Below, one piece after another: positions 55,562-56,701 of a stretch of 64,000 bases of DNA. The notes beneath the pieces were generated by a model. It was not told the DNA's origin. It did not search any database and saw only the letters and a list, made by a program, of their open reading frames with translations. Origin of the DNA: Chamaesiphon minutus PCC 6605 (lineage in GTDB: Bacteria > Cyanobacteriota > Cyanobacteriia > Cyanobacteriales > Chamaesiphonaceae). The stretch spans positions 3,506,385 through 3,570,384 of the forward strand of contig NC_019697.1 of NCBI RefSeq assembly GCF_000317145.1, read 5' to 3'. The number at the start of each line of letters is the position of its first letter. Position 1 is the stretch's first letter. The position numbers and the translations under genes are program-made.

Positions 55562-55978
55562 CTATTTACTAAACTTTAGTAATTCTTCTAATGCGGCTAA
55601 AAGCTTGACTTCTACTAGCAAAATCTCTTTATCTGTATTTAGCTGCATCAACCAACTTACGTTAATAGTAAAGTAATTAGTCTTTACTTTGCCTTGGACG
55701 TGATACTGAGTCAGCTCGCTATCTTTTAGTAGCATTGCGCCAGACTCCGGGCAAAAGGTCATCCCTTTGGCTTCTGTCGCTAAATACTTAGCGATCGCCT
55801 CTCTACCCTCGATCGGATTTTCAAATGGCGGCTCTAATCTACCGCTCTGGGCAAATAATTCGGCGGTGGCTGCGAACTCACCACTGTTCAAGCCACTAAA
55901 GTATGCAGCAATGGTCGGCTCTTCAATTCCATCGATATCGATTAATAATCCCGAACTGGAGGTAGGAGTTATGCTCAC
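55562..55978 (-). CDS. OCP C-terminal-domain homologue (CTDH), carotenoid-binding NTF2-like protein
   Basis: The 138-residue NTF2-fold protein closely follows the C-terminal domain of the orange carotenoid protein. Parallels are AYFSGLNSGEFAATAELFAQ, LEPPFENPIEGREAI, VQGKVKTNYFTINVSW and the end VKLLAALEELLKFSK. The keto-carotenoid hydrogen-bonding residues of OCP are retained as Tyr26 and Trp109, while the OCP Trp277 site is Tyr here. Cys76 (TFCPESG) may support dimer formation as described for CTDHs. CTDHs bind ketocarotenoid and hand it to helical carotenoid proteins. It is divergent from such a gene 222 bp away. The start is a GTG at 55978. Confidence 0.9.
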   Translation of the reverse strand: MSITPTSSSGLLIDIDGIEEPTIAAYFSGLNSGEFAATAELFAQSGRLEPPFENPIEGREAIAKYLATEAKGMTFCPESGAMLLKDSELTQYHVQGKVKTNYFTINVSWLMQLNTDKEILLVEVKLLAALEELLKFSK

Positions 55979-56200
55979 GAGCGTCAGTTATATATTTTGC
56001 AATGAGGCAAATAATCGAGATCGCGAATCGTGAAAACAGTAGCTTTTCGATCGCGATTTTTATTTGTTATTACATAAATATCAAAGCACAAATAATAAAT
56101 AATTCTATCTGTCTTTCGACCGATCGTCGTCTCTTTCTAAAGTAGGTATGATACCGAATAGATTATGAGTATTGTAGAGGAGACGAATTAGGACAGTATT
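55979..56200. promoter_or_regulatory. Shared divergent promoter region of the CTDH and HCP genes
   Basis: The 222-bp AT-rich gap between the two divergent carotenoid-protein genes must hold both promoters. AGGA lies 7 bp ahead of the HCP start codon. No operator was identified by eye. Confidence 0.5.
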
Positions 56201-56701
56201 GTGACAACAAGTATTTCTAATATTCAGCCGGAAATGACTTCTGCATTTACCGCTTTAGACACAGACCAACAGCTTGCATTATTGTGGTTTATATATAAGG
56301 AAATTGGCAAATCAATTACACCTGCTGCACCCGGAGCTAGTACCGCAGCACCAACGATTGCCGAAGGCTTGTTCAAACAAGTAGCCGAAATGAGCCACGA
56401 AGAGCAATTGCAAATCCAACGGGATTTGGTAGAAGGCAAAAATAGCTTAATTAGTCGGGAATATGGCGCGCTCAGCGATACTACTAAATTACTATTTTGG
56501 TATTTACTCGCCCAAGGTATGGATCGGACTGAAATTATCCCCATGCCAGCCGACTATCAAATGTCAGAGGAAGCGACTCAATGCATGACTAAACTTCAAG
56601 CAATGGAGCATTCAGAGCAAATAACAGTTTTACGCAATTTAGTAGCAAATATGGGTGCCGATCCTGAGACTAGTGCTCACGATGAGGCAACAGGTTTATA
56701 A
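56201..56701 (+). CDS. Helical carotenoid protein (OCP N-terminal-domain homologue)
   Basis: The 166-residue all-helical protein matches the OCP N-terminal domain: DTDQQLALLWFIYKEIGK, PAAPGAS, TKLLFWYLLAQGM and HSEQITVLRNLVANMG. The carotenoid-contact residues Tyr44 and Trp110 of OCP are present as Tyr32 and Trp100, and Arg155 as Arg145. It stops after the N-terminal domain with a short polar tail and has no NTF2 domain. HCPs bind canthaxanthin-type ketocarotenoids and quench singlet oxygen or, in some clades, phycobilisomes. Pairing with a CTDH suggests the HCP4/5-like groups; clade assignment is inference. The start is a GTG at 56201. Confidence 0.93.
   Translation: MTTSISNIQPEMTSAFTALDTDQQLALLWFIYKEIGKSITPAAPGASTAAPTIAEGLFKQVAEMSHEEQLQIQRDLVEGKNSLISREYGALSDTTKLLFWYLLAQGMDRTEIIPMPADYQMSEEATQCMTKLQAMEHSEQITVLRNLVANMGADPETSAHDEATGL

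Follow-up and report, generated by a model that had tools for sequence, protein, structure and literature searches.

A divergently transcribed HCP1-lineage and CTDH gene pair in Chamaesiphon minutus, a putative ketocarotenoid loading and storage couple

The gene pair and its control region

The window is the 64,000-nucleotide stretch of Chamaesiphon minutus DNA that was analysed here. A C-terminal domain homolog (CTDH), an NTF2-like carotenoid carrier homologous to the C-terminal domain of the orange carotenoid protein (OCP), is encoded on the minus strand (positions 55562..55978; 138 aa, GTG start). A helical carotenoid protein (HCP), which has the Carot_N domain and is placed in the HCP1 lineage by its sequence, is encoded on the plus strand (56201..56701; 166 aa, GTG start). 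The two GTG start codons are 222 bp apart, and the region between them (55979..56200) presumably carries the 5' control sequences of both genes. An earlier note on this DNA had described two separate, divergently transcribed genes at this distance, and the ORF coordinates bear this out. Its naming of the products as HCP and CTDH is likewise supported, by Pfam Carot_N for the former and by Anabaena All4940, in sequence and fold, for the latter.

The flanking genes, named by inspection, read as a CTP synthase, an aspartate kinase, an acetyltransferase, a pirin-like protein and an osmoprotectant-type ABC transporter. On these readings, a pigment operon is not evident beyond the pair itself.

A block upstream of the HCP gene (56080..56200) is conserved in the genus and is presumed to be a promoter or leader region. 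Across six Chamaesiphon genomes, mean pairwise identity is 68% over the 140 bp that precede the HCP gene (some rows of this alignment may hold up to about 10 coding bases), as compared to 46% over the 140 bp that follow the gene and 40% in shuffled sequences. The sequence AGGA is located 7 nt before the GTG start of the HCP gene. A search of the control region against Rfam found no family at gathering scores, and a promoter scan of the 222-bp region was uninformative, with five sigma-70-like sites on the two strands versus 2.7 in shuffles. The two genes may be co-regulated through this shared region.

Identity and lineage of the HCP

The Carot_N HMM search proposed in the earlier note is positive for the HCP (E=2.6e-60, 203 bits against a cut-off of 25). 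The 166-residue ORF has this Pfam domain without a fused NTF2 domain, and the protein is a single-domain HCP. Among the NCBIfam models, a match was found for neither the HCP nor the CTDH. The top solved relative of the HCP among PDB sequences is 5FCX/5FCY (E about 2e-53), which we take to be Anabaena HCP1; the entry name is given as red carotenoid protein ('RCP'). The structure of Anabaena HCP1 has been solved, according to the accessible part of PMC6123778.

A tree was calculated with IQ-TREE from 113 rows, which remained after 18 near-duplicates and 38 of the 48 OCP rows were removed from 169; five Carot_N pieces shorter than 120 aa were excluded before the counts. The clades were calibrated by 5FCX for HCP1 and by the gene naming of Chlorogloeopsis fritschii, in which the CTD gene adjoins HCP4, with HCP3 nearby (PMC7029182, in the portion available). 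The HCP5 clade was calibrated by inference, from a Halothece sequence (L118) that is a relative of the Euhalothece HCP5/CTDH1 pair in the available text of PMC6971039.

The HCPs of nine divergent pairs, together with the protein of genome G005, whose gene is at a contig end, form a clade in this tree (support 100/96). This clade joins L150 and then HCP1, and the C. minutus HCP thereby clusters with the HCP1 proteins of Anabaena and Chlorogloeopsis in a group of 20 rows (99/96). The grouping of the HCP1 lineage again has 99/96 in a wider tree of 84 rows. HCP1 proper is weak in the first tree (86/76), and is a grade around the divergent-type sub-clade in the second. Those HCPs retained in the 113-row tree whose genes lie before a CTDH gene on the same strand are grouped with HCP4/5 and OCP (47 rows, 100/97).

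A two-residue loop insertion after TPAAPGA is present in all 20 HCP1-lineage rows and in none of the 91 others, based on the 111 of the 113 tree rows that were grouped for the comparison of residues and loops. The 20 rows consist of 11/11 of divergent type (nine paired, L156 and L150) and 9/9 of HCP1. This insertion is a character noticed in the present analysis, and is not a published definition of HCP1. The mean identity between the C. minutus HCP and the group of Anabaena HCP1 is about 55%. On the basis of its sequence, the HCP is assigned to the HCP1 lineage and not to HCP4/5, the clades nearest to the OCP N-domain.

This assignment bears on the name given to the locus in the earlier note, a split orange carotenoid protein. 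Under that reading the two proteins would form an OCP-like heterodimer, or the HCP alone would quench phycobilisomes in the manner of HCP4 and HCP5. Tyr32, Trp100 and Arg145 are indeed retained at the aligned positions of the HCP, as had been claimed, together with the equivalent of Arg155, and OCP domains that have been separated are able to assemble into an OCP-like heterodimer (PMC12059629, in the part available). The contact residues do not discriminate among groups, since they are near-universal in the 111 HCP/OCP rows (Y32 in 110, W100 in 110 and R145 in 109) and universal in the 106 CTDHs described below. Arg65 and Phe152, given as marks of HCP4/5 in the same portion of PMC12059629, are missing. 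The loop at the HCP4 R65 site has no Arg, and residue 137, the equivalent of HCP4 Phe152, is His; His or Gln replaces Phe at this position in 9/11 divergent-type rows. In AU tests, for which the groups were defined after the trees had been viewed, a clade that unites HCP4 with the HCPs of the divergent pairs is rejected (p=0.0007), while a broad placement of the divergent-pair proteins with the whole HCP4/5/OCP side is not (p=0.175). Moreover, the C. minutus genome encodes a complete OCP elsewhere (C1:346909-347871). Given the HCP1 lineage, the missing HCP4/5 marks and the intact OCP, a split OCP is rejected as the best reading of the locus, and an OCP-like or HCP4-like quencher is most improbable here.

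Identity and residues of the CTDH

The NTF2 profile search that had been suggested did not recover the CTDH, which has only sub-threshold scores with the generic Pfam models SnoaL_2, SnoaL_4 and NTF2. Its closest match among PDB sequences is Anabaena CTDH All4940 (3.8e-30). An AlphaFold2 model, calculated from a 32-row alignment, has a pLDDT of 89.5, and the All4940 structures are the best Foldseek matches to this model (6s5l, E 1.9e-16, TM-score by query 0.82). Among its relatives, of which the best 80 of 216 confirmed loci were retained, the CTDH of C. polymorphus CCALA 037 is the nearest with a species name, at 88% identity.

Tyr26 and Trp109 are found at the aligned positions, in agreement with the earlier note, and equivalents of Tyr201 and Trp288 are present in 106/106 CTDHs. 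The note had also pointed to a change of Trp277 to Tyr. The Tyr is there, but the site varies freely among the 106 CTDHs (W 43, L 32, A 11, V 9, Y 6, F 2, and S, Q and I 1 each), and the replacement is rejected as a meaningful change. The interval between Trp277 and Trp288 is 4 residues shorter in the CTDH than in OCP, as judged from the OCP sequence of the same genome. The protein is an NTF2-like homolog of the OCP C-terminal domain with this shortened interval and with the Tyr201 and Trp288 equivalents, which are the characters of a CTDH/CCP.

The Cys103 site is Phe in 79 and Cys in 27 of 106 distinct CTDHs, and it is Phe in C. minutus. In the available text of PMC7512017, CTDHs are grouped by this residue, with Phe in CCP1 and Cys in CCP2. 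Similarly, the Anabaena CTDH (Cys103) is assigned to clade 2 and the T. elongatus CTDH, which is without Cys103, to clade 1 (PMC6123778, in part). The C. minutus CTDH has Phe and not the Cys at 103/105 of clade 2/CCP2. The Phe at 103/105 of clade 1/CCP1 is present, and the protein is located on its own separate branch, in a tree that does not contain the T. elongatus CTDH.

The CTDHs of Chamaesiphon and G032 form this branch (nine rows, 100/100), and a 12-row set is recovered in a wider tree (99/91), for which 24 near-duplicates were removed from the 106 sequences and 12 were added (the CTDHs of 11 pairs and the second copy of one tandem). The CTDH of G025 is placed elsewhere, with weak support. 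A single clade of paired CTDHs is neither recovered nor rejected by the AU test (p=0.349 for the first set and p=0.18 for the wider set). The phylogenetic placement called for in the earlier note puts the HCP in the HCP1 lineage (99/96) and the CTDH on a separate branch.

The divergent order could also be an early state that preceded fusion into OCP. The 20 paired CTDHs lie apart from the bulk of the family in the wider, midpoint-rooted tree, where the divergent-pair label needs 3 changes versus 18.4 in shuffles. However, this tree has long branches, and its root was set at the midpoint instead of being inferred. Moreover, the OCP N-domains group with HCP4/5, whose genes, in HCP>CTDH order, are a simpler source for the fusion. 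An ancestral pair is very unlikely on this evidence.

Recurrence of the divergent pair

The neighbours of 106 CTDHs were recorded within 1.5 kb. An HCP precedes the CTDH on the same strand in 37 cases and an OCP in 14; a divergent HCP is present in nine, and the CTDH precedes an HCP on the same strand in three. None was seen for 43 CTDHs, some of which are at contig or locus ends. The nine divergent pairs of this set of relatives are in genomes G000, G002, G003, G004, G006, G007, G008, G025 and G032. The same-strand HCPs before a CTDH are HCP4/5-type proteins, whereas those of the divergent pairs are HCP1-lineage proteins.

Two other arrangements were observed in the same census. The OCP genes that precede a CTDH are at loci L026, L031, L033, L078, L081, L084, L086, L099, L110, L128, L130, L133, L136 (where the contig ends within the OCP) and L138. 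At L017, L030 and L139, the HCP that follows the CTDH is of another clade, and this is a further type of pairing.

Within Chamaesiphon, the divergent pair is found in 7/9 genomes. G005 has both genes, each with a contig end on its 5' side, as expected of a broken pair. No match of HCP1 type and no separate CTDH were found in G001 (82% complete). In G009 and G010, family members of other genera, an HCP1-type match was not found at 1e-50. Wider searches covered 388 genomes of the order (E up to 1e-50, 69 matched) and 388 of the class (E up to 1e-52, 67 matched), two sets that overlap. Among the best 30 loci of each, which were inspected for a CTDH, at least 11 further divergent pairs were found, six in the order and five in the class. 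The total is at least 20 genomes in 10 families, and such counts should be taken as lower bounds, not as frequencies. Chance adjacency of the two genes is not plausible, because the pair recurs so widely. The divergent order had been thought worth comparing across genomes, and it proves to be recurrent and tied to one HCP lineage.

A single HCP1 sub-clade, with 45 rows and a support of 100/99 in the 84-row tree, contains all 20 paired HCPs. Another 24 of these rows are without a CTDH in the flank (mostly 1.5 kb, but less than 600 bp of 5' flank for L259 and L267), and one is at a contig end. Linkage of HCP and CTDH within the sub-clade is not obligatory, as more than half of its rows (24/45) have no CTDH in the flank. 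A CTDH is found at 0/21 loci of HCP1 proper (flank mostly 1.5 kb). The Cys103 site is Phe in 20/20 CTDHs of the divergent pairs. The distances of the partner proteins are correlated, with a Mantel r of 0.81 for 18/20 pairs (two were excluded, one with its CTDH in two ORFs and one long-branched), and 0/9999 permutations are as high. This correlation is as expected of joint inheritance, and is confounded by common descent.

Several loci have unusual gene structures. Two tandem CTDH-like genes, the second very diverged, are located beside a divergent HCP1-type gene at L239:2219-3124. The CTDH of one divergent pair is split into two overlapping ORFs (L242:834-1207), due to a frameshift or an assembly error. 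A weak second Carot_N piece is present near the HCP1-type gene at L148, L160, L216, L244, L248, L249 and L256, and is possibly a strongly diverged HCP that adjoins HCP1. In G027, two Carot_N domain halves are separated by about 40 bp within a single 206-aa open frame.

Other carotenoid genes and mobile elements

The C. minutus OCP gene has a divergent neighbour of its own, a CrtW-like beta-carotene ketolase (L001:542-2421; G000:C1:345992-347871), and this is a second divergent carotenoid pair in the genome. The ketolase scores 283.9 bits with the NCBIfam CrtW model, below the cut-off of 350. The genome also encodes an HCP2-type protein, whose best match is 6MCJ, presumably an HCP2. FRP was not found in C. 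minutus and three congeners (G000, G003, G004 and G006), while the identical search was positive in another member of the family, G009, and in the Chlorogloeopsis control (G060). The OCP of C. minutus (G000) may be of the FRP-independent type.

A search of viral contigs with the CTDH alignment gave 25 pattern matches, of which 0/25 were confirmed as relatives. On plasmids, the HCP and the CTDH each match only five records, with less than 60% identity. The two queries match adjacent parts of one and the same set of five records; at the matches, four records carry OCP-type gene names and one is unannotated. A mobile origin is rejected, as the plasmid matches look like OCP genes and viral relatives of the CTDH were not confirmed.

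Proposed function

The HCP1-type protein of this locus is paired with a CTDH in which the disulfide cysteine is missing, and because of this combination we propose that the locus probably encodes a divergent loading and storage couple for ketocarotenoid, with reversible transfer between the partners. The couple would not be a light switch, and quenching of phycobilisomes by it is improbable. The CTDH, without a redox-lock cysteine, would extract ketocarotenoid from membranes as a carotenoid-bridged dimer and would load it into the neighbouring HCP1-type protein. The latter would store or carry the pigment as a soluble antioxidant and, on demand, would probably return it to the CTDH. Through the 222-bp region that they share, the two genes would be expressed together. 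Carotenoid binding, the dimer, the direction of transfer and the lack of quenching are extended here from published relatives in Anabaena and T. elongatus, and are expected by analogy.

The available text of PMC6123778 describes the Anabaena proteins. The CTDH extracts canthaxanthin from membranes, which HCP1 and HCP4 are unable to do. It loads both of these HCPs, and holo-HCP1 arises only with the CTDH. Among HCP1-4, only HCP1 returns carotenoid to apo-CTDH-C103F, and HCP1 was proposed as a carrier. By lineage and by residue, the C. minutus pair looks like a natural equivalent of this reversible HCP1/CTDH-C103F couple. The CrtW-like ketolase near OCP in the C. minutus genome counts in favor of a role in handling ketocarotenoid. 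Against the proposal, the biochemical analogy leans on Anabaena HCP1, whose group is about 55% identical, and on an engineered mutant. In Fremyella, hcp1-3 and ccp2 are in one expression class and the hcp genes are up more than 30-fold in salt (PMC8739951, in part), which suggests a stress-related role.

Transfer could also be one-way, from the CTDH to the HCP, where the pigment would be kept as a quencher of singlet oxygen or radicals and would not be returned. HCP2, HCP3 and HCP4 give no carotenoid back to CTDH-C103F (PMC6123778, in the part available), and the divergent-type HCPs depart from HCP1 proper, for example by His/Gln at residue 137 (9/11 rows). On the other hand, lineage and the loop insertion place the C. 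minutus HCP with HCP1, for which return was measured. Loading without return is thus somewhat unlikely, and reversible loading and storage is preferred.

HCPs and CTDHs are already known, and the adjacency of HCP4 and CTDH has been published. A description of the divergent HCP1-type/CTDH pair was not found in the literature searched, to the extent that its text was available; two surveys that most likely treat gene neighbourhoods lie outside that scope. We suggest tentatively that an HCP1 sub-lineage may have co-evolved with its own redox-lock-free CTDH lineage into a dedicated, genetically linked, reversible carotenoid shuttle, which we hold to be possible rather than probable. If so, cyanobacteria would have a ketocarotenoid buffer that can be filled and emptied independently of the thiol control seen in the Anabaena CTDH, with no quenching of phycobilisomes. 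OCP and the HCP4/5-CTDH pairs would then be joined by a third functional branch. A 2022 review (PMC9237682, in part) names the roles of HCPs and CTDHs as an outstanding question. Across many genomes, neighbouring genes link one HCP lineage with one type of CTDH, and the divergent pairs offer natural proteins for a direct test of reversible transfer, so far shown with an engineered mutant.

Comparison with known systems

The C. minutus HCP shares its lineage, the two-residue loop insertion and the contact residues with HCP1 of Anabaena sp. PCC 7120. However, the residue-137 site is Phe in Anabaena HCP1 and His in C. minutus, and the divergent CTDH neighbour of the C. minutus gene has no counterpart in the flanks of HCP1 proper (0/21 loci).

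The C. minutus CTDH has the same shortening between Trp277 and Trp288 as Anabaena All4940, which is of clade 2 (CCP2 type). All4940 has Cys103, the disulfide lock, and adjoins HCP4 (PMC6123778, in the part available). In comparison, the C. minutus protein has Phe and a divergent HCP1-type partner. The published HCP4 or HCP5 and CTDH neighbours of Anabaena, Chlorogloeopsis and Euhalothece likewise have an HCP gene adjoining a CTDH gene. The HCPs of such pairs belong to the OCP-like clades and the genes are co-directional (37/106 CTDHs), while the divergent set has HCP1-lineage proteins.

In OCP, both domains and the linker are in one chain, in contrast to the separate, divergent genes of C. minutus. 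The combination of AnaCTDH-C103F with holo-HCP1 (PMC6123778, in part; mutant structure 9R84) likewise brings together HCP1 and a CTDH with Phe at position 103. That pair was engineered in the laboratory, whereas the C. minutus pair is natural and genetically linked.
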